A stretch of 64,000 nt of DNA from Bombella pluederhausensis (GTDB lineage: Bacteria > Pseudomonadota > Alphaproteobacteria > Acetobacterales > Acetobacteraceae). Below, one piece after another: positions 49,249-63,564 of the stretch. The first letter of the stretch is position 1. Each line of letters starts with the position of its first letter. The stretch spans positions 310,001 through 374,000 of the forward strand of contig NZ_JANIDY010000002.1 in NCBI RefSeq assembly GCF_026385525.1. The letters run 5' to 3'. Both the position numbers and the translations under genes were made by a program. The notes beneath the pieces are model-generated. The model ran no database searches. It saw nothing but the letters and a program-made list of their open reading frames with translations, and was not told the DNA's origin.

Positions 49249-50766
49249 ATGACTGATATTTCCTTTGTTGCAGGCACTCATCCACAGGGTGGGATTCCTT
49301 CTTTTGCTATTTTGTTCTGTCACGGGGCAGCGTTTGCTCAAGGAGCGGTGTTTCGTAGCTGTGATGAAGCTCTGGGGGGTGCTCTGTCCCGTGCGGTTGC
49401 CCTGCGGGATTTTACAGGCAAGGCAGGGCAGTCTGTTAGCCTGATCGCTCCAGCAAAGGATGTGGCACAGTTTCATCTTCTGGGCTGTGCCCCTGCCGGT
49501 GATGAACCGCAGAGTGCTGCCACAGCGGCCCATCTCGCTGGTGGTGAGGCCGTGAAGCTGCTGAAGGCCAGCAGCATTGAGGCGGCTGAAGCTACTTTGC
49601 TGCTGGAGGCTGAACAGGCCCCGCTGGCGGCGGAGATTGCGCTGGGCGCCCGTCTGGGAAGCTACCGTTTCGATCGTTACAAGACCATTACGGGCAAAGC
49701 TCCTGCTCTGAAGTCTCTGCATATCGCCCTGCCAGACGCTGGACAGGTGACAGACGTCCAGACACGTTGGAAAGAGCTGGAAGGACTGGGTGAAAGCGTC
49801 TTCCTGACCCGGGACCTTGTGAATGAACCGGCCAATGTCCTTTTCCCGGAAGAATTTACCCGGCGTATCAGGGAGCTTGAAGCTCTGGGGCTGGAGATTG
49901 AGGTGCTGGACCGTGCCCGGATGGAGGCGCTGGGTTTTGGTGCTCTGCTGGGCGTGGCACAGGGGAGTGAGAAGGCGCCGTTCACTGTCATTATGCGCCA
50001 TAAAGGTGATGCCGGGTCTGACAAGGCACCGTTGGCTTTCATCGGTAAGGGCGTGACCTTTGATTCCGGGGGTATCTCCATCAAACCTGCTGCGGGCATG
50101 GATGAGATGAAGATGGATATGGGCGGTGCCGCTGCCGTTGTCGGTGTGATGAGTGCGCTGGCCCGCCGCAAGGCCCCGGTCAATGCCGTGGGTGTTGTCG
50201 GTCTGGTGGAGAATATGGTGTCCGGCGAGGCCCAGCGCCCGGGTGACATCGTGAAAAGCCATAGCGGCCAGACCATCGAGGTGCTGAATACCGATGCTGA
50301 AGGGCGTCTCGTTCTGGCAGACCTGCTTTCTTACACACGCCAGACCTTTAAACCGGCCCTGATGGTCAATCTGGCCACGCTGACGGGGGCTATCGTGGTG
50401 GCGCTTGGCAGCGATTATGCTGGCCTGTTCAGCAATGATGACCAGCTTGCCGGAACGCTGGCCAAGGCTGGGGAAGAAACGGGTGAAGCCCTGTGGCGTA
50501 TGCCCATGGGTGCGGCCTATAACCGCCGCATTGATTCCGACATTGCCGATATGAAGAATATTGGTGGCCGTCCGGGCAGCTCCATTCTGGCAGCCGAGTT
50601 CCTGAAGCGCTTCGTGGGGGATACGCCGTGGGCACATCTGGATATTGCCGGAACGGCATGGGCTGAAAAGGCAACCGCTATTACCCCGAAGGGGGCCAGT
50701 GGCTTTGGTGTACGTCTGCTGGACCAGTTCGTCCGGCTATATCAGGGGACAGCCTCCCAGCATTGA
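49249..50766 (+). CDS. pepA: Leucyl aminopeptidase (M17)
   Basis: The 505-residue cytosolic peptidase trims N-terminal residues from peptides with two metal ions. The metal ligands are in [29 protein letters not shown] and [16 protein letters not shown] (M17 signature NTDAEGRL). The N-terminal macro-like domain is less conserved. holC follows 100 bases later on the same strand, a common pairing. Confidence 0.95.
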
Positions 50767-50866
50767 GGCTGAATGATGGGCCAGCTCTGCAAAGGGCTGG
50801 TCAGGCTGGTTTCCATCTGCATCAGGAAGCTGTGGCTGATGGAGACCTTCTTGAAAGAGGCATGTC

Positions 50867-51364
50867 ATGCGGGAGCAGGCAGACGGACAGAGCAGAACGG
50901 AAGCCTATCAGCCACGGGAGATTCAGGTGGGGTTTTATCACCTCACACGGACTTCCTTTGAGGATGCTCTGCCTGCTCTGCTGGAAAGAACATTGGCAGG
51001 CGGTGAGCGTGCCGTGATCCGCTGTCATGATGCTGCGCAGGTGAAGGGGCTGGATGAGGCCCTCTGGACACCTCGTGCAGGCGTCTGGCTCCCTCATGGC
51101 AGCAAGGCGATGGGGAAGGCGTCCCGTCAGCCTGTCTGGCTGACCGACAGTGATGAGTGCCCCAATGGTGGCGCCTTCCTGTTTCGCATCAATGGTGCAT
51201 GGGATGGGCAGCTGACGGGTTTTAAAAGAATTTTTGATCTGTTTGATGGCCATGATGACACGGCAGTTCAGGAGGCCCGTCTGCGCTGGAAAGCCATGAA
51301 GCAGGCCGGGTATCACATGGCCTACTGGAAGCAGGAAGCCAGAGGCTGGACAAAATCAGGGTAA
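50867..51364 (+). CDS. holC: DNA polymerase III chi subunit
   Basis: The 165-residue clamp-loader accessory subunit binds SSB. VGFYHLTRTSFEDALPALLE, RAVIRCHDAAQVKGLDEALW and IFDLFDGHDDTAVQEARLRW match HolC. A GAAAGAGG ribosome-binding site precedes the ATG. Only eight bases separate its stop from the HyfB-like gene, so the hydrogenase-like genes may be read from the pepA-holC promoter. Confidence 0.9.
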   Translation: MREQADGQSRTEAYQPREIQVGFYHLTRTSFEDALPALLERTLAGGERAVIRCHDAAQVKGLDEALWTPRAGVWLPHGSKAMGKASRQPVWLTDSDECPNGGAFLFRINGAWDGQLTGFKRIFDLFDGHDDTAVQEARLRWKAMKQAGYHMAYWKQEARGWTKSG

Positions 51365-51372
51365 GAACCAGC

Positions 51373-52701
51373 ATGTCATTTCATGATCCGCTCATGGCTT
51401 GCCTGTTGGCACTGCTGATCGTCCTGCTCCTTGGGGATCGGTCCATCCGTGTGTTTGTCAGTGGCCTTTGGCGTTCGGTGCCTCTTGGTGTCTGGCGGCA
51501 GGGGGGCTGCTACATGGTAGGCATGGTTCTGGCCATGTTGGCACTGGGGGTTGCCTCTCATGCAGGGGCGGCTGCCTGTCTGGTCGCTGTAGCGCTTGTT
51601 CTTCTGGGGGGTGGAACAGTCTTTCAACCCGTCTGGGGTATACCGGCGCTGGTTGGCTATGCCCTTCTTCCTGCGGGTGCTGGTGGTCTCGGTGTGATGG
51701 CGACCTGCTTCTGGGCTGCGGGACGGGCAGCAGGCGAGCATGAGGTGGTTCGGCTTGTGGCGCTCATCCTGATGTTGGGGCTGGGGCATGAAATGGTCAT
51801 CCAGCAGCCGCTGATCTGGATGGTGGGGGGAAGTGTTCTGGCCGGGGTATGCCTGCTGGCGGGACTGGGGGAAGCACGGCTGTTCCTGTACCGATATTGT
51901 CGTCTGTTGCGGCCTGTATTGCTGCTGGGGGTCATGGAGGTGTCCCGTCAGCAGGGGATGGAGCTCGGAGTGGAGGGCGCTTTTTTTGCTCTGTTGCTGG
52001 ACCTTGCTTGCCAGTGTCTTGCGGCTATCTGGCCTCGCTCTGCCTTGCTTCTTCTTCCAGCGCCTCCTTTGCCGGGTTTTATTGTGGGCTGGGTAGGGCT
52101 TCACGCATCATTAGGGCTGAGCAGCAGTACGGAGGGCTGGACCGTCATGGGCTGTCTGCTGGGGGTGGCCATCATGGGGCTTTCCTTTGGGGATGGTGTG
52201 CGGGTTCTCAGTCAGGCCAGATTTTTCCTGCGGGACAGGCAGCCGAAGCATTGGGCAGGGGGGCTGTGTCTGGCTGCGGGTCTGCCATCCGTCTGTGGTG
52301 TGGTGGCAGGCTGGCTTGTCGGGCATGGGACTGGCTGGGCTGGTTGGCTTTACCGCCTTCCCGGTGGGGATGGCAGCGTGACAGCTCTGCCGCTTTTCTG
52401 GGGTGGGTTGTTTTTGTTTTGGGCTTTTGCCTCCGGGCGCAAAAGAGATGATGCCCATGCGGCTTTGACATCTGATGAGACTGAAGGAGGGGAGTTAATC
52501 CGACTTCAGGCTTATATGCAGGCACAGCCTGTTTTGCCACGCAGTATGAAACGGCTGATGATGCGAGGGCAGAGACAGGTTCGCACTGTTCGTTCTGTTC
52601 TTCTGGAGGGGCGGTCTTTCTTGCCAGTGCAGGAGCTGGGGGCCGTGTTCTGGTTGATGTTTCTGGGCGGCGTGCTGGTCGTGATGGGGCTGGCTCAATG
52701 A
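51373..52701 (+). CDS. HyfB/NuoL-like membrane subunit, shortened and diverged
   Basis: The 442-residue protein has about ten hydrophobic helices. Identification rests on the antiporter-like motif LLLPAPPLPGFIVGWVGLHA (residues 226-245), which corresponds to the LPPLNGFVSEW block of HyfB, and on its place at the head of a HyfB-C-E-F-G series. E. coli HyfB is about 670 residues; here the motif comes some 150 residues earlier than expected, so much of the first antiporter repeat is missing. I cannot find the usual helix-7 lysine before that motif. A charged loop near 380-410 precedes the last helix. It overlaps the next gene by four bases (ATGA). Confidence 0.6.
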   Translation: MSFHDPLMACLLALLIVLLLGDRSIRVFVSGLWRSVPLGVWRQGGCYMVGMVLAMLALGVASHAGAAACLVAVALVLLGGGTVFQPVWGIPALVGYALLPAGAGGLGVMATCFWAAGRAAGEHEVVRLVALILMLGLGHEMVIQQPLIWMVGGSVLAGVCLLAGLGEARLFLYRYCRLLRPVLLLGVMEVSRQQGMELGVEGAFFALLLDLACQCLAAIWPRSALLLLPAPPLPGFIVGWVGLHASLGLSSSTEGWTVMGCLLGVAIMGLSFGDGVRVLSQARFFLRDRQPKHWAGGLCLAAGLPSVCGVVAGWLVGHGTGWAGWLYRLPGGDGSVTALPLFWGGLFLFWAFASGRKRDDAHAALTSDETEGGELIRLQAYMQAQPVLPRSMKRLMMRGQRQVRTVRSVLLEGRSFLPVQELGAVFWLMFLGGVLVVMGLAQ

Positions 52702-53570
52702 TCGGATCGGCCCTGCTTTCCGTGCTCCATATTGTGCTGGAGCTGTGCCTTCAGTGCGGGGTGCTCTTGCTTCTGTTGCCTTTGATGTTCTGGCTGGAGG
52801 AGGATGTTCCGGCCCTGCTGGTCGGGCGGGCGGTGGCGCCGTTGAGGGAGCGGTACAGGCGCTTTGCGGCTTTCTGGCGGGAGATTCTGCGGACAGGCCT
52901 GCCGCTGGAAGATGGGCTGATGCTGGCGCTTGGTTTTCTGGCTGTGCTGTGTCTTGCGGGTTTATCGCTTGTCAGGGCTGATGTTGGAAGTGCGTTGGGT
53001 GCGTGGCTGGCGGACCCGTTGCTGATGGGAGGGATTCTGCTGGTGGGGGCCTTCTGGGCCGTGCCGGGGCGTTTCCGGGCGGTGCATGGGCGCTGCTGCT
53101 TTGCCCTGTGTCTGACAGAATGTTTCCTCGTGCTGGCAGCGCCGGGTGTAACGGGTCTTCAGGGGGTGCAGCGCCTTCTGCTGGCGGCACCGGGCTCCAG
53201 CCTTGCGGGGACATCCCTCTGCTGTGCCGCAGCATTGGCCCTGACAACATCCCTGCCAGATTTTCAGGTGCTGGCGGATGAGATGGTGAGTCGTGGGCGG
53301 CCTGCCAGCCGTCTGGCACGAGACCAGCGGCAGGTGATCGTGAGTATTCACCATGTAGGTTGGGCGCTTCTTCTGGGCGATCTTCTTCTGCCTGTCCTGT
53401 TCGGACTGGAAGGACCGGCGGGAGTGATCGGGCTGGTGATACGGTTTGGTGGGGGCAGTCTTCTTGTGGCTTTGGGGCGGTTGACGGGGATGAGCCGCAA
53501 CGGCCGGTTAGTGGCTCTTTTGCTGGGGTTGGCCGGGCTGATGGCTCTTGCCGGGAGGTTCGCCGTATGA
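52698..53570 (+). CDS. HyfC/NuoH-like membrane subunit, diverged
   Basis: The 290-residue hydrophobic protein has about eight helices. Two regions recall HyfC/NuoH: MFWLEEDVPALLVGRAVAPL (about 30-49), in the place of the ERRxLARxQxRxGP loop that contacts the peripheral arm, and SLPDFQVLADEMVSRGRPAS (start about residue 186), in the place of the acidic loop after PFDLxEAE. The glycine-proline of the first loop is gone and the acidic residues of the second are thinned. It is joined to both neighbours by four-base ATGA overlaps. E. coli HyfC is somewhat longer, about 315 residues. Confidence 0.62.
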   Translation: MIGSALLSVLHIVLELCLQCGVLLLLLPLMFWLEEDVPALLVGRAVAPLRERYRRFAAFWREILRTGLPLEDGLMLALGFLAVLCLAGLSLVRADVGSALGAWLADPLLMGGILLVGAFWAVPGRFRAVHGRCCFALCLTECFLVLAAPGVTGLQGVQRLLLAAPGSSLAGTSLCCAAALALTTSLPDFQVLADEMVSRGRPASRLARDQRQVIVSIHHVGWALLLGDLLLPVLFGLEGPAGVIGLVIRFGGGSLLVALGRLTGMSRNGRLVALLLGLAGLMALAGRFAV

Positions 53571-54100
53571 TGACCGGCTTTGCCTGTGCACTCGTACTGC
53601 TTCTGTTGACATTGGGGCGGGATGGCCGCTGGCTGCCGCTTTATGGGCTGTTCTGTGCAGCTATTGCGGCAACATCCGGCACGGGGGCGTTGGCTGTTTT
53701 GTGTGCCTTGCTGCTGCCTGTCTTCAATCTGCTGCTCTGGGGGATAGTCCGGCATTTTGCCGTTGGGCAGGGGACGATGTTTGCCGGTGGGCGGGGGATG
53801 ATGCCCGTGGTCATGACCCTGCTGCTCCAGTTTGTGCTGGCCTTCTTTGGGGCAGGGCTTGGGTTGGTGCCAACTTTTGGCATTGGGCTGGTTCTGGCCG
53901 GGCTGTGTTCGGCGGCCTGTGGAGTGGCTCTGGCCCAGTTCTGCGGGCTCATCATGGCGGTGGATGGCCTGATGGTCATGGCGTCTCTTTTGCCGTCATG
54001 GGGGCTGTTCGTTACGGCGGTGGCGCTCTGGGCGGTGATGGTGTTTCTGGCGCTGGTGCTGCTGCCAAGGCTGGCATGGTTGCGGGTGGAGGAAGACTGA
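53567..54100 (+). CDS. HyfE/NuoK-like membrane subunit, diverged
   Basis: The 177-residue protein has about six hydrophobic segments. Near its C-terminus, AQFCGLIMAVDGLMVMASLL (123-142) lines up with the QxxGxxxxENGxxLA block of HyfE, followed by a last long helix and a short charged tail. The glutamate-asparagine pair of that block is replaced (AVDG), which removes a membrane carboxylate kept in related complexes. The start at 53567 overlaps the previous stop (ATGA) and the stop overlaps the next start (TGATG). E. coli HyfE is about 216 residues. Confidence 0.62.
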   Translation: MMTGFACALVLLLLTLGRDGRWLPLYGLFCAAIAATSGTGALAVLCALLLPVFNLLLWGIVRHFAVGQGTMFAGGRGMMPVVMTLLLQFVLAFFGAGLGLVPTFGIGLVLAGLCSAACGVALAQFCGLIMAVDGLMVMASLLPSWGLFVTAVALWAVMVFLALVLLPRLAWLRVEED

Positions 54101-55308
54101 TGGCACTGGCGGCTGTCTCATTTTCATCAGGTCTGTTTGCCTCGCCGGTTCTGTTCGGGCTGTTCTGCTGGCCGTTTCTGGTGGTCTGGGTGCTGTGGGC
54201 ATCACGGCGGCCAGCGCAGGCGGGGCGCATGGCCCGTCTGGGATTTGGCCTGAGTCTTCTGGCTCTGCTGGGCTGTTCTTCTGGCATGACATGGGGGCAG
54301 GCTCTCTGTCTGGCTATGGAAGCCTGTGTTCCTGTTCTGCTGTTCAGCTTATGGACTGGGCCTGAACCTGCTCAGGAGAAAGCGTCTTTTAGAGAGGGGA
54401 TGGAAGCCTATCTGCCATTCTTTGTTACGGGCTGCGTCTTCATGGGGCTGCTTTTGCGGCCTCCTTTGGCGGCTCTGTTTTTTGATGGGGCTGGGACGGT
54501 CCTGCTGGCGTGGTGGGACGGTCGGGCGACACGGCGGGCCCTGCCTGCGTGGGAGATGGTACGCCTACGGTTGAGTGGTGTGATACTGGCTGGTCTTGGT
54601 CTGGCCGTGATGCCGGGTGGTGATGTCTTCTCCAGTCATGAAACGGCGATGCAGGTCGGGCAGGTTCTGGCCCTGACAGGGCTGTGCATGATGGCGGGTT
54701 TGGGTAGTGCCGTGTCCAGCCGGGCAGAGCTGGTCCTGCTGGATGTGGGGCTGCGTTTCGTGCCGCTATTCCTCATGACGCTGCTGGCGATGACGCCTTT
54801 CACACATCTTCTGATGGTCATTGCCGGTCTGCTGGCCATGGCGAGCCTGCTTCTGGCTCGGTCGGGGGTGTTCCCTCTGCTGCCATGGCTGACGGGGCTG
54901 GGACTGCTTGCGGCAGGAACCGGGCAGATGCTGTGCCTGTTGATGCTATATGTAGCGGCGCTGCTGGCAGCGGCGTTGCGTTTGGGATGTAACGGTTTTC
55001 TGCCATCAGGTCAGACGGTTCTGCCGGGCGGGTTGGCCCTGTTGCCCGTGCAGATGGTCCTGCCGGTTGTTATGGTGGTGCTGGTCGTGTTGGCGCCACT
55101 GCTGGACTGGTGGGCGCTGGCTGGTCTGCTGCTCTGTATGATGCTGGGGCTCTGGCAGCTGAAGCTTGAGACGATGCCGCAGAGCCTACTCATGGTCTGG
55201 CAGCGGGGAGGTCCGTTGATGCGGGGGCTCCTGTGTCTGTTGGGTCTGCTGGCGCTTCTGGCGGTGGCGTTTCTGGCATCGCCCGTATTGAAAGGATACA
55301 GCCCATGA
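54100..55308 (+). CDS. HyfF/NuoN-like membrane subunit, shortened, without membrane lysines
   Basis: The 402-residue protein has about eleven or twelve helices and sits where HyfF lies in hyf operons. It is far from known HyfF in sequence. There is no lysine between residues 94 and 355, although the antiporter-like subunits normally carry key lysines in helices 7 and 8 and a glutamate in helix 5. The GTKAGLAPMHxWLPDAH block of proton-pumping relatives is missing. E. coli HyfF is about 526 residues. The start at 54100 overlaps the previous stop; the true frame is open from 53548, but that start lies inside the previous gene. The assignment depends mainly on context. Confidence 0.55.
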   Translation: MALAAVSFSSGLFASPVLFGLFCWPFLVVWVLWASRRPAQAGRMARLGFGLSLLALLGCSSGMTWGQALCLAMEACVPVLLFSLWTGPEPAQEKASFREGMEAYLPFFVTGCVFMGLLLRPPLAALFFDGAGTVLLAWWDGRATRRALPAWEMVRLRLSGVILAGLGLAVMPGGDVFSSHETAMQVGQVLALTGLCMMAGLGSAVSSRAELVLLDVGLRFVPLFLMTLLAMTPFTHLLMVIAGLLAMASLLLARSGVFPLLPWLTGLGLLAAGTGQMLCLLMLYVAALLAAALRLGCNGFLPSGQTVLPGGLALLPVQMVLPVVMVVLVVLAPLLDWWALAGLLLCMMLGLWQLKLETMPQSLLMVWQRGGPLMRGLLCLLGLLALLAVAFLASPVLKGYSP

Positions 55309-56741
55309 TGACGGGTTCTGCCCTACCTGAAGGCGAGCGTATCGGGCTGTTCCATTATCGTGTCACGGCGGAAGGCTGGCAGCGCCTCTTGCAGCAGAAT
55401 GCCCGAATGATGACGTTTCTGGCTTTCTGGGCGAATGAAGAATGGGCCACGGCTCTGTTTCTATTGGAAGGCGAGCAGCCGCTTCTATTGAGCACGGCGG
55501 TGGAGCAGGGGCATTATCAGGCCGTGTCCCCCTATTTCCCAGCAGCTCAGTGGGGAGAACGAATTTCCAGAGACCTGTGGGGCGTGGAGGCATGGTCTGC
55601 GCTGGATGACAGTCCAGCTCTGGATGATGGTAGCTGGTCCCTGACAGCGCCTCTTTCCGCCAATCCTCTGCCTGTCGCAGAGGGAGGCGGTCAGCCTCTG
55701 CCACGCTGTCGGATTGAACCTTCCTGCACGCCTGTGCCGGGGCTGCTCGGTATTGATTATGTGCTCTCTGATGGCGTGATGCAGCAGGTGGATATACAGA
55801 TCGCCGCCGGGCATCGGGGGGTGTTGTCTCGTCTGATCGGGTTGACCCCGCAGGAGGCCATGCCTCTGGTATCCCGCATCTCTGCCAGCGGTTTCGTGTC
55901 TCATCCTCTGGCCTTTGTGCGTGCGCTGGAACAGGCCGAGAGCCGCCGGATAGACCCACGGGAACGGGACAGGCGTTTGATTCTGCTGGAAGTGGAGCGG
56001 ATGGGGCTGCATCTGTTCGACCTCGCCCAAATGGCCCATCAGGCGGGAGCGGGGCTTCTGGCCAGCCTGTATGACCATGCACGGGAAACTCTGGCGGAGG
56101 TCTGTACGGTTCATGGCCTGTCACGGCGTCTGACGGATAGTATCAGTCTGGAAGGTAAGAGCGGCGTGGAGGCCATCATTCCGTTTGTTCAGGCCGTTAT
56201 TCAGGGGATAAGGCCTCGGATGGAGCAGATCAGACCGCTTGCCCGTTTGTTCGATGGTCGCCTGAAAGGGGTTGCTGCCGTACCAACGGATGTAGCATGG
56301 GAGTATGCGCTTGGCGGTGTGATCGGGAGAGCCAGCGGGCGCTATCTGGACATGCGTTACATGGATGAAGGTGTGAGGCCGCAGGCGATGGGCGGGGCAG
56401 GGCGTCATGAGGGTGATGCGTGGGCCCGGAACCGCCAGTGTCTGGCTGAAATTGAGGAATCCCTGAAGATTCTGGAGCGCATGACCGCCGATTACGGGCA
56501 GGAGAGTGAAGGGCAAGCCGTTCCTCGCACGGATGAAGGGCTGGGTGTTGCGGAAGGGCCTCGGGGTGATGTCTGGTATCATGTCGTATTGAAAGAAGGA
56601 CGGCTGGCCAGTGTGCAGATACGGGACCCGATGCTGCCTTTACTGTCCGTTCTGGGGTCTGTTCTGGAAGGGCATGAGCCGGAGCAGCTTGGGCTTGTTC
56701 TGGCCTCTCTTGGGGTGTCTCCGGCTGGTGTGGCCCTGTAA
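55305..56741 (+). CDS. HyfG/HycE/NuoCD-like large subunit lacking NiFe cysteines
   Basis: The 478-residue soluble subunit fuses a NuoC-like domain (about 1-135) with a NuoD/hydrogenase large-subunit domain. Strong matches are IQIAAGHRGVLSRLIGLTP (165-183; HRGxExL in relatives), LILLEVERMGLHLFDLAQMA (225-244) and VAEGPRGDVWYHVVLKEG (415-432). The four cysteines that bind NiFe in group 4 hydrogenases are gone: RxCGxC is RISASG (191-196; S193 and G196) and DPCxxC is DPMLPL (441-446). It therefore cannot hold a NiFe centre. Ehr complexes and complex I also lack these residues. The start overlaps the previous gene (ATGA). E. coli HyfG is longer, over 550 residues. Confidence 0.85.
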   Translation: MMTGSALPEGERIGLFHYRVTAEGWQRLLQQNARMMTFLAFWANEEWATALFLLEGEQPLLLSTAVEQGHYQAVSPYFPAAQWGERISRDLWGVEAWSALDDSPALDDGSWSLTAPLSANPLPVAEGGGQPLPRCRIEPSCTPVPGLLGIDYVLSDGVMQQVDIQIAAGHRGVLSRLIGLTPQEAMPLVSRISASGFVSHPLAFVRALEQAESRRIDPRERDRRLILLEVERMGLHLFDLAQMAHQAGAGLLASLYDHARETLAEVCTVHGLSRRLTDSISLEGKSGVEAIIPFVQAVIQGIRPRMEQIRPLARLFDGRLKGVAAVPTDVAWEYALGGVIGRASGRYLDMRYMDEGVRPQAMGGAGRHEGDAWARNRQCLAEIEESLKILERMTADYGQESEGQAVPRTDEGLGVAEGPRGDVWYHVVLKEGRLASVQIRDPMLPLLSVLGSVLEGHEPEQLGLVLASLGVSPAGVAL

Positions 56742-56776
56742 TCCTGCTTTTACGGAAAAGGCTGGCCCGCCACACA

Positions 56777-56793
56777 ATGTTATATTATAACAT
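56777..56793. promoter_or_regulatory. Palindrome before the TonB-dependent receptor
   Basis: Perfect 8-base arms ATGTTATA (56777-56784) and TATAACAT (56786-56793) surround one central T, in an AT-rich 96-base gap. TATAAAAT just downstream could be a -10 element. The placement suits an operator, perhaps for metal or iron control of the receptor, but it is not a clear Fur, Mur or Irr box. Confidence 0.5.
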
Positions 56794-56837
56794 ATAAAAT
56801 AGAATTTAAGATTTATCATGCGCTGTGTGAGGGGTTT

Positions 56838-59702
56838 GTGCGGCTTATCAGACGGGGCATTGCCCTCATGCTGGGTGGAGGACTGATCTTTCCGGCCTTG
56901 TTGGTGTGTTCTGCTCAGGCAGAGGACCGCACAACGGTGAAACAGACAGTTCCCGAGACTTCTCATAAACCATCCCGTGAGACATCCGGGACTGGCCGGG
57001 CGCTTCAGGCGGCTCATGCCAGCGCCCAGCCCGTTGAAATGCTGACAGTCACAGGGTCTTTCCTCCAGGGTGGGCGGAAGACTTCACCCAATCCGGTGCA
57101 GACCATCACGGGGAAAGACATACAGCGCAGTGCCGTGACCTCTCTGGGGGATTATCTGCAACGGATGCCCTCCATCGGGTCCTCCGGTTCGCCGAACAGC
57201 ATGACGAATGGCGGCAAGGGAGCATCCTGCACGGACCTGCGCAATCTGGGGCAGGGGCGGGTTCTGGTGCTGATTGACGGGCATCGGGCACCGCTCAATG
57301 CCGGGTCTGAATGTGTGGACCTTAACACTATCCCTTTGCAGCAGATTGAGAAGGTGGAAATCCTCAAGGATGGCGGGTCTGGCCTGTATGGGGCGGATGC
57401 CGTTGCGGGTGTCATCAACATCCATCTGCGTCATGATCTGACGGGAAGCAACATCACCATGCGGGGGAGCATCACGCAGGTGGGGGATGCCCGGGGTGGA
57501 GAGATTTCCGCCTATCATGGCATGAATTTTGATGAAGGACGGGGCAATGTCACGATAGCGGGCAGTTACAGCACGACCGGACCTATCTATAACCGGGACC
57601 GTGGCTGGTCGGCCCTGCCACAGAATGATAATCCGGCCACGGGCAGCCCCAGTTACGGGTCATCCATCATTCCATCGGGTGTCCTTATCAACCCACAGAC
57701 AGGGCAGAAGATGGTGCCGGACGGGCAGGGTGGTTTCCGCCGTTTCACGAGTGGTGACCTCTATAATTTCGCCCGTTACTCCACGATTATGAACCGCCAT
57801 GATGATGGGACGGCCTCCATTGATGCCCATGAGCGTTTTTCCAGCTTTGTGACACTCTATGGAACCATGCGTTACAGCCATACGCTTGTAGGCCGCACCC
57901 AGTCCCCAGCCCCGATACAGGGGAGCGTGCCGCCTTCCACTTTGTCATCTTCATGGATACTGCCTGCGGCCAGCCCCTATAATCCGTGGGGGATGGATGC
58001 ATCTGTTATCAAACGGGCAGAGGATGTCGGGCCACGGCGCAATAACATCAATACGGATACGTGGACGTTCCTGCCCGGATTGAAAGGGAAGTTGGGTGCC
58101 GGATGGGATTATGATGCCTCCTACACCTATGGGCGGAGCCATCTGTCATCTCATACGCAGGATATGATCAATTATCGCAATCTTCTGGAGACGACAGGGA
58201 CGAAGCAGCTGGATGTGACCAATCCTCGCAGTGCCGTGGTGTACGATCCAAGCATCTGTCAGGCATCGCAGGGCTGCGTGTTGCAGAGCCCTTTTGCGCC
58301 TTATAGCCAGCAGGCAAAGGATTATATTCGTTTCACCCAGAGGGACCGGGCCACCTATCAGCTGCGGGACACGATGCTGCGTCTGCGGAACCCGCATCTT
58401 TTCGCTCTGCCGTGGCGTTATGCAGGGCCTGTCGGGGTGGCCATGGGCATGGAACACAGAGGCGAGCAGTTAAGCTATCATCCTGATGCGTTGGTGGCAC
58501 AGGGAGCATCCACAGGGGCAGCTGGTGCTTATACGGGCGGTGGTTTCACCGTGTCGGAAGGGTATGGCGAGATTCAGTTGCCTCTGCTGAAGCGTGCTCC
58601 GTTCGCACGGGACCTGACGGTCGATCTTCAGGGGCGTGTTTCTTCATACAGCCATTACGGCACACCGCTGAACTGGAAGACCGGCCTGCACTGGGCACCG
58701 GTTCAGGATGTAGCCTTTCGGGGGACGCTGGGTACGTCTTTCCGGCAGCCGGGCCTGTATGATGTCTATGGTGGTCAGACATTGAGTTATGCCTCAGCGT
58801 CCGACCCCTGCGCCCATGTCAGCAGTTATGGCAGTAATGCGGGGGCCGTGCGGGCACGCTGCCAGAAGGAGGGGATTAATCCGGCCAGTTTCACCTCCTC
58901 ACTGGTGGGGCAATTACCGACTCTTTCCGGTGGCAATCCACGGCTGGGGCCGGAATATGGACGCACGGCAACGGTGGGGATGGATATTACGCCCCGTTCC
59001 CTCAAATCATTACAGCTTTCCGTGGATTATTGGCATTATAGCTTGCGTGACATGATTTCGACCCTCAGCACGCAGACGCTTCTGGATGGGTGCTATACGG
59101 GCAGTGAGCCTGATTTCTGTAGTGCCATTCTGCCCCGGTCCAGTAGCGGGCAGATCACGGCCATTGAGGCCCTGCCGCAGAATATCGGTGCCCTGAAAAC
59201 GGATGGTCTGGATTTCAGCCTGCGCTACAGTCTGGCCTTGAGTGACAGGGATCAGCTGAGCTTCTATGAAAATACCCAGTATCTTCTGAGTTACAGGCAG
59301 AAGCTGACCCGTAACGGTAACTGGCAGAATTACACGGGCCGTCTGCTCTACCTGAATGGTAGCGGGCGACCACGGGAGCAGCATTACATCAGCACGACAT
59401 GGCGTCATGACCATATCAGTCTTATCTGGATGACCCGTATCATCAGCGGCATGAAGATGAATGACGGCCACTGGGACCTAGACCCGGCAACATCCGGGCG
59501 GACCCATGTTGGCGGAACGATCCTGCATGATGTGACGGTGACGAGCCGGTGGCATCAGTTCCAGCTGATGGGCGGTATCAGCAATCTTTTCAATCGCCGA
59601 CCGCCTTTCGTGCCGGACGGGGCCTTTAACACCGCCTTTTCTCAATATTCAGGCTATATCGCCGGAAGAAGCTTCTTCCTTCAGATGGGGGCTGATTTCT
59701 AG
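56838..59702 (+). CDS. TonB-dependent outer-membrane receptor
   Basis: The 954-residue receptor imports a bound substrate across the outer membrane using TonB energy. A signal peptide (IALMLGGGLIFPALLVCSAQA) is followed by a short Ser/Thr-rich linker, the plug domain (about 70-190: NPVQTITGKDIQRSAVTSLG, GQGRVLVLIDGHRAP, IEKVEILKDGGSGLYGADAV, AGVINIHLR) and a 22-strand barrel ending SFFLQMGADF with a terminal phenylalanine. I use the GTG at 56838 with GAGGGG just before it. The substrate is unknown; iron carriers, vitamin B12 and sugars are all possible. It splits the hydrogenase-like cluster. Its last 77 bases overlap the convergent lipid kinase gene. Confidence 0.92.
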   Translation: MRLIRRGIALMLGGGLIFPALLVCSAQAEDRTTVKQTVPETSHKPSRETSGTGRALQAAHASAQPVEMLTVTGSFLQGGRKTSPNPVQTITGKDIQRSAVTSLGDYLQRMPSIGSSGSPNSMTNGGKGASCTDLRNLGQGRVLVLIDGHRAPLNAGSECVDLNTIPLQQIEKVEILKDGGSGLYGADAVAGVINIHLRHDLTGSNITMRGSITQVGDARGGEISAYHGMNFDEGRGNVTIAGSYSTTGPIYNRDRGWSALPQNDNPATGSPSYGSSIIPSGVLINPQTGQKMVPDGQGGFRRFTSGDLYNFARYSTIMNRHDDGTASIDAHERFSSFVTLYGTMRYSHTLVGRTQSPAPIQGSVPPSTLSSSWILPAASPYNPWGMDASVIKRAEDVGPRRNNINTDTWTFLPGLKGKLGAGWDYDASYTYGRSHLSSHTQDMINYRNLLETTGTKQLDVTNPRSAVVYDPSICQASQGCVLQSPFAPYSQQAKDYIRFTQRDRATYQLRDTMLRLRNPHLFALPWRYAGPVGVAMGMEHRGEQLSYHPDALVAQGASTGAAGAYTGGGFTVSEGYGEIQLPLLKRAPFARDLTVDLQGRVSSYSHYGTPLNWKTGLHWAPVQDVAFRGTLGTSFRQPGLYDVYGGQTLSYASASDPCAHVSSYGSNAGAVRARCQKEGINPASFTSSLVGQLPTLSGGNPRLGPEYGRTATVGMDITPRSLKSLQLSVDYWHYSLRDMISTLSTQTLLDGCYTGSEPDFCSAILPRSSSGQITAIEALPQNIGALKTDGLDFSLRYSLALSDRDQLSFYENTQYLLSYRQKLTRNGNWQNYTGRLLYLNGSGRPREQHYISTTWRHDHISLIWMTRIISGMKMNDGHWDLDPATSGRTHVGGTILHDVTVTSRWHQFQLMGGISNLFNRRPPFVPDGAFNTAFSQYSGYIAGRSFFLQMGADF

Positions 59703-60603
59703 TCGGGCAGATGATCTGCAAAGGAGTGGGTGCGCTGGCGATGCAGCACGGTGTCATGCCGCGAAAATCACCGTCACTTTGTACTGGTACGGGCTTATTG
59801 CCAGAGCAGGTAATGGTCTGGCCTTTGATGTAAGAGACGGCAGGGTCTGGACATGGTTTGCGGCAGCAAAAGGCCAGTAACTGCCTGAGCAGGGCCAGAG
59901 GGTTTAGTCGGTGCAGCATGAAGATGGAAAAACCGGGTTCCTCATGATGGTTATGAGGGAACAACCTGAAAGGCCCGCCATAAAGCCGCCCTTTGGACAT
60001 GATGGTCAGGCAGGAGTGGTATGTCCTGCCATCCACGCAGGTTTCAAAAGCAGGGAAAGGATAGGCAAAGGGTAGGCGCAGCGCCGTCAGAGCATAGGCC
60101 AGTCGTCCGATACGCTTCTTGAGCGTAGAGGAAAGCTGCTGCACCACCCATCCATCCAGTCCTATACCGGCCATCTGAAGGAACAGGGTCGGGCTGGTCT
60201 GGCCTTCTGTGGTGAGCCATCCCGGCCAGAGTGTGCGGGTCTGCCCGCTGGCAATCAGGGTGGCGTTATGGGCATCAGAGAAGGGAATGTTCAGTTCCAG
60301 TGCCAGTACATTGGCGGAGCCGACAGGCCAGAGGGACAGCGGGCAGGGGTTTTCCATCATGGCATGGGCGATCTCGGCAATCGTCCCATCACCGCCTCCG
60401 GCAATGATGAAGTCTGTTTCTGGTGGGCGGTTCTGTACGATGTCCGCAGCATGTCCTTGGTAACGGGTCTTCGTGACTTGTACGGTCAATCCAGCCCGTT
60501 CCAGATGCTGCACGAAGCCAGTCAGTCGTTTTTCGGAATAATGCCCCGCAGTCGGATTGACGATGAGCAGGGCCTTGCGAGGGGTGGGGGATGATGCCGT
60601 CAC
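59626..60603 (-). CDS. Diacylglycerol/lipid kinase family protein (YegS-like)
   Basis: The 325-residue protein has the DAGK catalytic signature: LLIVNPTAGHYSEKRLTGF at the start, FIIAGGGDGTIAEIAHAMM with the GGGDGT nucleotide loop, and LWPVGSANVLALELNIP. The C-terminal beta domain includes CLTIMSKGRLYGGPFRLFP and the closing PVQSDGDFRG. Roughly the last 25 residues go beyond the normal end of the family and are read from the antisense of the receptor gene's 3' end. The enzyme would phosphorylate diacylglycerol or a related membrane lipid. It is divergent from the HyfI-like gene with 112 bases between. Confidence 0.88.
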   Translation of the reverse strand: MTASSPTPRKALLIVNPTAGHYSEKRLTGFVQHLERAGLTVQVTKTRYQGHAADIVQNRPPETDFIIAGGGDGTIAEIAHAMMENPCPLSLWPVGSANVLALELNIPFSDAHNATLIASGQTRTLWPGWLTTEGQTSPTLFLQMAGIGLDGWVVQQLSSTLKKRIGRLAYALTALRLPFAYPFPAFETCVDGRTYHSCLTIMSKGRLYGGPFRLFPHNHHEEPGFSIFMLHRLNPLALLRQLLAFCCRKPCPDPAVSYIKGQTITCSGNKPVPVQSDGDFRGMTPCCIASAPTPLQIICPTRNQPPSEGRSFFRRYSLNIEKRRC

Positions 60604-60715
60604 GGGGGTAGTTACTTCACTCTGGGCTGGAACAGGACGGACCTATATAGTGCCCGTTTTGAAACCTCTGTTACAGGTTTTTATCTCCCTTTGTTCTTGT
60701 GAGGGTCATTTCGCC

Positions 60716-61234
60716 ATGCAGCCTGCCCCCCTGACCATGATGCTTGCCTTTCTGGACGTGCAGAAATGGCGTCCCCGGCCTCTGAGGCGGCAGGGGCGGC
60801 GCATCCGTTTATTTACTCTGGAGGCAGGAAGCTGTGAGGGCTGTGCGATGGAGCTGGTATCTTTGGGGAGCAGCGCTTACCCGCTGGAGGGTAGTGGTTT
60901 TCAGCGGGTTCAACACCCGGAAGATGCTGACTGGCTGCTGGTTACGGGCTCTGTGATACGTTCCTGTGCCAGTGCGCTGGCCAGTGCGTGGGAGGCCATG
61001 CCCGCCGGGCGTAGTCTCGTGGCTGTGGGAGACTGTGCTTATAATGGTGGGCTATGGAAGAATAATTACGCCACGCTGGGCGGTCTTCATGCGCTCAGCC
61101 GGGTTTACAGTTCTATCCCCGGCTGTCCGCCGTCACCTTCTGCTATTCTTCAGGCGTTGGTGGAGCTGGCAGAAGGTGGTTCGTCCTCGACAGGCTCCCA
61201 GGCTTCTTCAGCTTCACGGCGCAGACGCCAGTAA
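60716..61234 (+). CDS. HyfI/HycG/NuoB-like small subunit
   Basis: The 172-residue protein is the Fe-S small subunit expected for the large subunit encoded 4 kb upstream. Cysteines fit the NuoB/HyfI pattern for one [4Fe-4S] cluster: C40 and C43 in EAGSCEGCAMEL, C107 in AVGDCAYNGG and C137 in SIPGCPPSPSAIL. IRSCASAL stands where relatives have the GPVTxx loop. The ATG at 60716 has GAGGG about ten bases upstream; a longer frame starts at 60557. E. coli HyfI is about 250 residues, so this is short. The last 85 bases overlap the convergent pssA gene, and the tail SSSTGSQASSASRRRRQ probably has no function. Confidence 0.82.
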   Translation: MQPAPLTMMLAFLDVQKWRPRPLRRQGRRIRLFTLEAGSCEGCAMELVSLGSSAYPLEGSGFQRVQHPEDADWLLVTGSVIRSCASALASAWEAMPAGRSLVAVGDCAYNGGLWKNNYATLGGLHALSRVYSSIPGCPPSPSAILQALVELAEGGSSSTGSQASSASRRRRQ

Positions 61235-62016
61235 GAGCGGCGGGACAGCGGAATCATGACGAGGTAGAGCAGCCCGGCTGCTGCCAGTGCACCCCATGGT
61301 TCTGCAATGAGAATGGCCGTGTAAGCCCCTGTCCCGACCAGCATCGGCAGGATGTACCGGGATGGCACCTTGAAATTCTTGAAGGACCAGATCGGCAGGG
61401 TGGAGACCAGAAGCAGGGCCGTGACAATCAGGCAGCCCGCTGCCAGCCACGGGGAATGAGCAAAATGCTCTATCCCTGTCAGATGGTTGCGTTTGGCTTC
61501 CAGCCCAAGGAAAACTGGGAACAGGGCCAGCCCAGCCCCTGCCGGTGCCGGAACGCCAGAGAAGAAATTGGCGGCATATTCCGGTGCTGTGTCATCATCC
61601 AGTGCCGAGTTGAAGCGAGCCAGACGCAACGCCATGCAGACAGTGAAGAAGATGAAGGGAATGAAGGCCAGACGCTGCGTGGCGGGGAGTGCCCAGAGCA
61701 TGAGGATGAAGGGCGGTACCACGCCAAAGCAGACGAAGTCCGAAAGACTGTCGAATTCTGCACCGAAGCGTGACGTGCCCTTCAGCAGGCGGGCGATGCG
61801 GCCATCCAGCCCGTCCATGCAGGCAGCCAGCAGCAGGGCCGCCGCTGCATGGGTGAAATGACCCGTCATGGAGAACTTGATGGCACTCAGCCCCGCACAG
61901 AGGCCGAGCATCGTCAGGATGTTCGGGACAAGCCGGTTGAAGGAAAGCCCATGAACCCGGCGCCGCTTGCGCCGGTATCTGTGCATGATGGTCGTGCCGG
62001 GAGATGGCTTCTGCAT
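61150..62016 (-). CDS. pssA: CDP-diacylglycerol-serine O-phosphatidyltransferase
   Basis: The 288-residue integral membrane enzyme makes phosphatidylserine. The CDP-alcohol phosphotransferase motif is intact: CMDGLDGRIARLLKGTSRFG followed by AEFDSLSDFV, with all the catalytic aspartates. About eight helices surround it. GAGGG lies eight bases before the ATG at 62016. It follows psd by ten bases in one operon. The C-terminal tail (EEAWEPVEDEPPSASSTNA) overlaps the end of the HyfI-like gene. Confidence 0.94.
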   Translation of the reverse strand: MQKPSPGTTIMHRYRRKRRRVHGLSFNRLVPNILTMLGLCAGLSAIKFSMTGHFTHAAAALLLAACMDGLDGRIARLLKGTSRFGAEFDSLSDFVCFGVVPPFILMLWALPATQRLAFIPFIFFTVCMALRLARFNSALDDDTAPEYAANFFSGVPAPAGAGLALFPVFLGLEAKRNHLTGIEHFAHSPWLAAGCLIVTALLLVSTLPIWSFKNFKVPSRYILPMLVGTGAYTAILIAEPWGALAAAGLLYLVMIPLSRRSYWRLRREAEEAWEPVEDEPPSASSTNA

Positions 62017-62026
62017 ATGATGGCCC

Positions 62027-62716
62027 TCAGAGCTTCGCTATGACCGTCTCGCCTCCGATCATCGTCTGCCCTTCCAGAACATCGGGGGTGACACCCGGCG
62101 GCAGATAGATATCCGTGCGGGACCCGAAGCGGATGAGACCAAAAAGCTCGCCAGCCTGTACCTGCTCACCTTCCTTCACATCACAGAGGATGCGGCGGGC
62201 CACAAGCCCAGCAATCTGCACAACAGCTACCTGACGGCCATCTTTAAGGGTTACACGCAGCTCGTTGCGTTCATTATGCTCAGACGCTTTATCCAGACTG
62301 GCATTGAGGAATTTGCCAGCATGATAGGCGATCTTGGTTACCGTCCCACTGACGGGCATACGGTTCACATGCACATCCAGCACGGAGAGGAAGGTCGAAA
62401 CACGCCAGACCGGCTCACTGCCCATCTCCAGCGCAGGCGGTGGCGCCACCATGGAGACGCCCGTCACACGTCCATCTGCACTGGAGAGGACGAGATTGTC
62501 ACCCTGCGGAGATGTCCGCCGTGGGTTACGGAAGAAGTACAGGCAGAAGCCGGTGAAAGCAAAGCCCGCTGTACCAAGTGCCCGTGTCAGCCGCCACGGC
62601 GTGGCTCGTCCCAGCACACCGGCCAGCAGGCCAATGCCAAGGAACGGTGTTGCCGCACGGTGCGGCGGAGCAAGGACGAGTTTGAAAGATTTGATCAGTG
62701 ACATGAGATTACTCAT
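62027..62716 (-). CDS. psd: Phosphatidylserine decarboxylase
   Basis: The 229-residue enzyme converts phosphatidylserine to phosphatidylethanolamine. It is the short archaeal-like type: [18 protein letters not shown] is the conserved core and [15 protein letters not shown] near the C-terminus has the Gly-Ser site where the protein cuts itself to form the pyruvoyl cofactor. Two N-terminal helices anchor it in the membrane. With pssA it makes up a complete PE branch. Confidence 0.94.
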
Positions 62717-62856
62717 ACGTCACCTGCCGGATGGGTCAAGTATTTCGTTATGAAGGGGGCTGTGGTTGCGGCTGTGGGGAAAAGGCCCCATCTTGAGGGT
62801 ATGGTGTCTGTTATCCCGCTGTTTTCTGCGGGATTTCCTGTAGAAGGAGAGAGCGT

Positions 62857-63564
62857 ATGAGTGTGGAGATCAGACCTGTTTCTGCGTTTCAGGATAATTA
62901 TATCTGGTTCGTCCGGCAGGGGGATGGCCCGTGGGTGGTGATTGATCCCGGAGAGGCGGGCCCAGCAGAGGCAGTGCTGGGAGCGGAGGCCCCGGCTGCC
63001 ATCCTTCTGACCCATCATCATGGGGACCATGTCGGCGGTGCTGAGGCCCTGAAGCAGCGCTATGATGTTCCTGTCTATGGCCCATCTGATGTGGCCGCTG
63101 TCGATCATCCTTTGAAGAATGGCGATGTGCTCTCCATTGCAGGGCTGACCTTTCATGTCATGGCGACACCCGGCCATACGCTGGACCATCTCTGCTATGC
63201 GCTGGAGGGAGAAAAGCCGGCCCTGTTTAGTGGGGATACGCTGTTCAGCGGGGGGAGTGGGCGTCTGTTTGAGGGCAGTGCGGAACAGCTTTTCACCAGT
63301 TTCCGTCAGTTTGATGATCTGCCGGATGATACCCTGCTCTGCCCCGGCCATGAATATACGCAGGGGAACCTGAAATTCATTGCGTCATTGGGGGAGAAGC
63401 CCCCAGCCCTTGAGGCCCGCATGGCAGAGGTTGCGAAGCTTCGGGCGGAAGGGCGGCCATCCGTGCCCGTGCTGCTGGGTGTGGAGCGGCGGACCAATCC
63501 CTTCCTCATGGCCCGGACACCGGAAGAACTGGCCCGCCTGCGGAAGCAGAAAGACCAGTTCTGA
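62857..63564 (+). CDS. gloB: Hydroxyacylglutathione hydrolase (glyoxalase II)
   Basis: The 235-residue metallo-beta-lactamase-fold enzyme splits S-lactoylglutathione in methylglyoxal detoxification. The metal motif is ILLTHHHGDHVGGAEAL. Later ligands lie in ATPGHTLDHLCY, FSGDTLFSGGSGRLFEG and CPGHEYTQGNLKF. GGAGAGAG precedes the start. A short hairpin (ATCCCGC/GCGGGAT, 62813-62834) lies just upstream. Confidence 0.94.
   Translation: MSVEIRPVSAFQDNYIWFVRQGDGPWVVIDPGEAGPAEAVLGAEAPAAILLTHHHGDHVGGAEALKQRYDVPVYGPSDVAAVDHPLKNGDVLSIAGLTFHVMATPGHTLDHLCYALEGEKPALFSGDTLFSGGSGRLFEGSAEQLFTSFRQFDDLPDDTLLCPGHEYTQGNLKFIASLGEKPPALEARMAEVAKLRAEGRPSVPVLLGVERRTNPFLMARTPEELARLRKQKDQF

Follow-up and report, generated by a model that had tools for sequence, protein, structure and literature searches.

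The locus and its genes

Bombella pluederhausensis is an alphaproteobacterium in the family Acetobacteraceae with a genome of 2.0 Mb. A stretch of 64,000 nucleotides of its contig NZ_JANIDY010000002.1 (the window, in whose numbering all positions are given) contains six genes whose products resemble subunits of hydrogenase-4 and of respiratory complex I, and which appear to encode a complex stripped of its nickel–iron (NiFe) site and of residues on the proton route. The genes are designated here by the letters of their Hyf counterparts. As stated in the initial annotation, the cluster has counterparts of HyfB, C, E, F, G and I arranged in this order, B to G at 51373-56741 and I at 60716-61234, all on the plus strand, with B the weakly identified member. 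Overlaps of 4 bases join B to C, C to E and F to G, and E overlaps F by 1 base. The nearest named relatives are other Bombella species: G is 87% identical to its counterpart in B. dulcis, and identity with the B. mellum and B. intestini proteins is 85%. Other genomes and loci are cited by number (G and L, respectively).

51373..52701, plus strand: B, HyfB-like antiporter-type subunit of the stripped type, 442 amino acids (aa); weakest identity of the six
52698..53570, plus strand: C, HyfC/NuoH-like subunit, 290 aa; iterated hidden Markov model (HMM), E. coli HyfC profile match
53567..54100, plus strand: E, HyfE-like subunit, 177 aa; iterated HMM, E. coli HyfE profile match
54100..55308, plus strand: F, HyfF-like antiporter-type subunit of the stripped type, about 402 aa; profile and Foldseek
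55305..56741, plus strand: G, large subunit (HycE/NuoD-like), 478 aa, predicted to have no NiFe ligands
60716..61234, plus strand: I, small subunit (HycG/NuoB-like), 172 aa, with Cys at 40, 43, 107 and 137; Oxidored_q6, HycG

Large and small subunits

Profile searches of the subunits, which the initial annotation had proposed, readily placed two of them. G matches the Pfam family Complex1_49kDa (E 1.3e-12) and, in the PDB, MbhL, Nqo4 and HycE, whilst I matches Oxidored_q6 (E 1.1e-22) and has its best PDB alignment with HycG (2.1e-19). When G is aligned with HycE, the CGIC motif of the latter falls opposite S193-A-S-G196, and DPCYSC falls opposite G470-V471-S472-P473-A474-G475 (GVSPAG). The initial annotation had therefore named the first lost cysteine pair correctly (S193/G196), but had placed the second at M443/L446, about 30 residues before the true site at S472/G475. 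Its conclusion that the large subunit cannot bind NiFe holds with the corrected positions, none of the 38 large-subunit rows having a Cys at any of the four. Three positions in G are of note:

55875..55904, plus strand: R191-H200 (RISASGFVSH), opposite RVCGICGFAH of HycE, by alignment with HycE
56718..56729, plus strand: S472-G475, opposite CYSC of HycE DPCYSC, by alignment with HycE
56103..56105, plus strand: C267, a Cys typical of the stripped clade (27/30 rows inside it, 1/8 outside)

Also replaced in G are two elements of NuoD with roles in quinone binding, its HPSTHG loop and its Tyr. His188 of HycE, in the β1–β2 loop, is kept in six of the eight rows outside the stripped clade and in 1/30 inside it, and Asp529 is replaced on both sides. 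As judged by alignment, the large subunit is a relative of group-4 hydrogenases and NuoD without NiFe ligands. In the small subunit, C40, C43, C107 and C137, which had been put forward as ligands of one Fe–S cluster, do align with the cysteines of HycG and HyfI, and all four are present in 81/81 rows, a count that holds some species twice and whose rows are not independent. The ligand set for one predicted [4Fe-4S] cluster is kept in I.

The reported lack of HyfA, HyfH and formate dehydrogenase genes was confirmed: the cluster holds no gene for HyfA or HyfH (nor for HyfD), and the host genome has no PF00384 molybdopterin oxidoreductase and no formate dehydrogenase. PF00384 is absent from 10 of the 11 genus genomes, its sole match (in G007) adjoining the NuoD and antiporter genes of that genome; NuoG belongs to this family. 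HypD is absent from 11/11 genus genomes.

Identity of the membrane subunits

The four membrane subunits, B, C, E and F, are more difficult to recognise. Pfam matches none of them, and NCBIfam gives a single irrelevant sub-threshold match, for E. When alignments made from Bombella only were compared with full-size HyfB, C, E and F using hhalign, the matching subunit reached a probability of at most 1.8%, and addition of G018 raised that for C to 14.8%. Twenty further loci from intermediate genera were then added for iterated HMM and profiles, and the iterated HMM starting from Bombella reaches full-size C and E. Full-size members had by then entered the iterated sets, which makes the matches of C (100%) and E (99.7%) to the full-size alignments circular in part; E. 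coli HyfC and HyfE served as the independent tests for these two subunits and the full-size alignments for F and B. On these tests the C profile matches HyfC at 98.6%, E matches HyfE at 44%, and F matches full-size F at 77.6% with no shared sequences, its CMMAGL motif lining up with GTKAGL. For B the best template is full-size B at a probability of 9%, in a collinear alignment that sets PPLNGFxSEW opposite PPLPGFIVGW.

Predicted models of B and F (predicted local distance difference test, pLDDT, 76.7 and 73.7) gave no Foldseek match with E < 0.001. Among the 50 matches listed for each, the five with a probability above 0.8 are all antiporter subunits of complex I, Mrp or formate hydrogenlyase (FHL), those for F being NuoL/NuoN; the highest TM-score listed for B is with HycC (0.50). 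Intermediates and models support the predicted identity of C, E and F; the support for B is weak, and it is called HyfB-like with reservation. It would be very improbable that B and F are instead unrelated membrane proteins sharing an operon with a NuoB/CD/H core. Such a reading would explain why both escape Pfam, NCBIfam and direct hhalign, why B stays at 9% after iteration and why Foldseek gives no significant match, but it fits poorly with the shared gene order, the F profile score, the two motifs that line up (GTKAGL/CMMAGL and PPLNGFxSEW/PPLPGFxxxW) and the exclusively antiporter-type matches above 0.8 probability. The iterated models did not recover B and F of G011 and G023, both of which lie within the 30-row large-subunit clade described below.

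Residues lost from the proton route

Alignment of the membrane subunits with full-size relatives and with the FHL subunits HycC and HycD points to the loss of charged residues from each of them. Four positions can be marked in the window, one of them a gain:

52087..52089, plus strand: G239 of B, opposite HycC E391 (Glu in 0/27 stripped rows, 5/5 full-size)
52102..52104, plus strand: H244 of B, a His gained and conserved in the stripped clade (60/63 rows, partly duplicate species)
53960..53962, plus strand: V132 of E, opposite the Glu of HyfE MENG (Glu in 0/30 stripped rows, 5/5 full-size)
54691..54693, plus strand: Met of F, opposite the Lys of transmembrane helix 7 (TM7; GTKAGL to CMMAGL; Lys in 0/30 stripped rows, 5/5 full-size)

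The equivalents of HycC E135 and K239 are likewise each retained in 0/27 stripped rows, against 5/5 of the full-size ones, and at the position of K336 the stripped rows have no Lys and four Arg. In C, the equivalent of HycD E138 is present in 0/32 stripped rows and in 6/6 outside; these counts leave out the HycD loop around E199-E206, where the alignment has many gaps. In E. coli, a change at HycD E138 cuts H2 production by 98% and one at HycC E391 by 45% (PMC9474812). The unusual feature of the B. pluederhausensis complex, as far as its sequences tell, is the disappearance of proton-route residues from B, C, E and F, and not its number of genes. A separate case is G016 (L038), outside the stripped clade, where the HyfE Glu is lost and B has no Lys; this is perhaps a second, independent loss.

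Distribution and selection

A survey of Acetobacteraceae, also suggested in the initial annotation, matched the large subunit in 373/395 genomes at E <= 1e-3, of which 22 matches do not reach 1e-10 and might represent NuoD. Acetic acid bacteria from bees and from other sources carry it, and among the named carriers are Bombella, Parasaccharibacter, Saccharibacter, Gluconobacter (with G. oxydans), Tanticharoenia and Acidomonas. Stripped F, of the Bombella–Gluconobacter type, was found in 49/395 genomes and 12/96 genera, and an F recovered only through iteration is present in G070, G096, G294, G295 and G370. In a tree of the large subunit, whose rows come from the family, from E. coli and from two unclassified distant relatives, 30 rows including all the stripped rows used form one clade with support of 100/100. 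The stripped clade takes in Bombella, Saccharibacter and Gluconobacter among others, and its membrane subunits have become unrecognisable to Pfam. Of the eight rows outside it, five could be shown to have full-size B and F; G016 is smaller, and G021 and G163 are the remaining two. In G021 (L039) the large and small subunit genes adjoin, and the 19 kb searched there gave no match to a B, C, E or F of the full-size type. The small subunit was matched in 17/17 genomes tested, and in 12 of them its gene is separated from the operon; unlinked genes of this kind were seen among L124-L128, L130 and L131 and in G061, G011, G070, G316 and G329.

No antiporter subunit (PF00361) was detected in 10/11 genus genomes, G007 being the exception, or in 14/14 genomes of the genera g68, g111, g75 and g84. 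Because Pfam detects no complex I antiporter subunit in these genomes, the stripped complex appears to be their sole complex of the complex I superfamily. G007 (L030), alone among the genus genomes in having Nuo complex I, retains the stripped complex alongside it.

All six genes have ratios of nonsynonymous to synonymous substitution (dN/dS) of 0.02-0.22 across six Bombella pairs, calculated pairwise by the Nei–Gojobori method on single tblastn segments; the pair G006-G010 (dS at most 0.07, almost no changes) is excluded from this range and gives 0.45 for C and 0.32 for I. The values fall inside, or close to, the span seen for holC, pepA, gloB and the neighbouring kinase gene and, for most of the genes, above those of pssA and psd. 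The frames are open in all 11 genus genomes. By these sequence measures the six genes are conserved under purifying selection. Decay into a functionless remnant, which the initial annotation had named as the outcome that would speak against it, is accordingly not borne out. Loss of catalytic and proton-route residues is what decay would produce, and stops do occur inside the matches in a few single genomes (for example in F of G316 and G253), but the low dN/dS, the open frames, the spread of stripped F over many genera and the unbroken set of four small-subunit cysteines led to its rejection, and it is hardly credible.

Comparison with known systems

The annotation of the locus as a relative of hydrogenase-4 and complex I of the NiFe-less, Ehr kind is supported. 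With the Ehr complexes it shares a single small subunit, a gene number of six or seven and a large subunit from which NiFe cysteines are missing, and it would also share the HyfE-like and antiporter-like membrane proteins (PMC3569383, PMC7894505, PMC10284858). The Ehr cluster of Desulfotomaculum ruminis comprises the six genes Desru_3260-3265 (PMC3569383) and that of Geobacter GSU0739-45 (PMC7894505). In D. ruminis EhrL keeps the four Cys (PMC3569383), whereas all four are gone here, and the membrane subunits here differ further from Ehr in being stripped of proton-route residues. By its predicted composition it is an Ehr complex, the large-subunit tree holding no named Ehr sequence. Published accounts call the function of Ehr unknown (PMC10284858) or suspect charge translocation through its antiporter-like subunits (PMC6349859).

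The nearest full-size relatives are alphaproteobacterial six-gene operons of a 'hydrogenase 4' type, which share the order B-C-E-F-G-I, the NiFe-less large subunit and the one cluster. One is contiguous in G027, from another alphaproteobacterial family, where B and F are NCBIfam hydrogenase 4 subunits above cut-off (NF005086 and NF005043, respectively), and others occur in the Acetobacteraceae G012, G014, G015 and G020. In these five genomes B has 626-681 aa, F has 477-486 aa and the Lys and Glu residues are present, whereas the stripped type has the shorter B and F listed above and has lost those residues. The further claim that the complex is 'much smaller still' than Ehr is not supported, given these operons and the six- and seven-gene Ehr clusters; six genes without HyfA and HyfH represent no reduction, because operons of the G027 type and published Ehr clusters are similar. 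The absence of HyfA and HyfH was accordingly rejected as a distinguishing trait.

E. coli formate hydrogenlyase-1 and hydrogenase-4 resemble the complex in the HycG-like small subunit and in the profile matches of C, E and F to HyfC, HyfE and full-size HyfF, and differ in having the NiFe site, HyfA, HyfD, HyfH, formate dehydrogenase and HypD. Respiratory complex I (Nuo) shares the NuoB-, NuoCD- and NuoH-like core; it differs by its NADH module, absent from the host genome, and by the NuoD loop and Tyr replaced in G. Among the matches listed in a literature search, there was no description of the stripped complex in acetic acid bacteria, and in the text of the Bombella intestini genome paper that was retrieved 'hydrogenase' and 'complex I' are absent, and the paper lists a type II NADH dehydrogenase (PMC5112900).

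Genomic neighbourhood

The six genes are non-contiguous, since two convergent, overlapping genes (56838-60603) part G from I:

56838-59702: TonB-dependent receptor, between G and I
59626-60603, minus strand: diacylglycerol-kinase-like gene, between G and I

Outside the genus, in the 26 named loci in which I was found, its start lies between 4 bases ahead of the end of G and 25 bases past it. Within the genus, four of the ten other genomes (G006, G007, G009 and G010) have the kinase without the receptor. The spacer is therefore an insertion that arose in this genus. Upstream, the gene for DNA polymerase III chi ends 8 bases before the start of B. The flanks pepA-holC (49249-51364) and pssA-psd-gloB (61150-63564) are common to Bombella and G023, and the address therefore looks like an old chromosomal one, an inherited gene order that gives no clue to function. 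A Pfam scan recognised no partner enzyme at the locus.

Proposed function

The likeliest of the functions considered, put forward tentatively, is that of a non-pumping, single-cluster membrane redox module. It would be an Ehr-type complex of the alphaproteobacterial six-gene kind that was stripped further in one clade of Acetobacteraceae. Its subunits would still assemble on the membrane, where the cluster would pass electrons from a soluble donor to an acceptor within or next to the former active-site pocket, with no proton pumping by the known route. The donor may be a ferredoxin docking where HyfH or NuoI would sit, a possibility raised by the two Fer4_7 proteins in the host genome. Gene content, selection and residue losses can be read from the genomes, and by alignment the NiFe ligands, the complex I quinone residues and the key proton-route residues are gone.

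Several points weigh against this proposal. That the subunits assemble, that the cluster is present and that electrons pass from a donor to an acceptor are matters of inference. In E. coli, E135A, H222A, K239A, H328A and K336A of HycC had no significant effect on H2, and HycC naturally has no TM7 Lys (PMC9474812), so that loss of those HycC-type residues alone does not prove that pumping is lost and the weight rests on E138 and E391. The B alignment, and hence the residue losses in B, is the least secure. Stripped rows also keep other charged positions in the membrane arm, namely R180, D210, H244 and D333 of B, D106, D228 and R249 of C, D133 and R168 of E, and R156, R158, D216 and R220 of F; the arm is not featureless.

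These charges would suit a rewired ion translocator, in which the membrane arm moves protons or another ion through D210, H244 and R180 of B, D216 and R220 of F and D106 and D228 of C, coupled to the cluster. Their conservation in the stripped clade favours it, as do the location of B H244, five residues beyond the site of the lost Glu, and that of D210 opposite HycC H328. The equivalents of HycC E391 and HycD E138 are gone, however, the charge counts include duplicate species and so are not independent, and the charges may serve subunit contacts; such a translocator is considered unlikely. Somewhat unlikely, too, is a redox or iron sensor or a membrane scaffold without turnover, whose cluster would report redox state or stabilise the assembly. 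It would agree with the single cluster and with the absence both of a known catalytic site and of a recognisable partner enzyme at the locus, but six subunits, two of them antiporter-like, seem costly for a sensor, and Pfam and NCBIfam revealed no signalling domain.

The stripped complex bears on the role of Ehr complexes. The stripped clade offers a natural experiment in how much a complex I-like machine can lose under continued selection, with proton-route residues gone from four membrane subunits in genomes where it is apparently the sole complex of the superfamily that remains. Gluconobacter oxydans is a culturable carrier, which makes deletion strains feasible.

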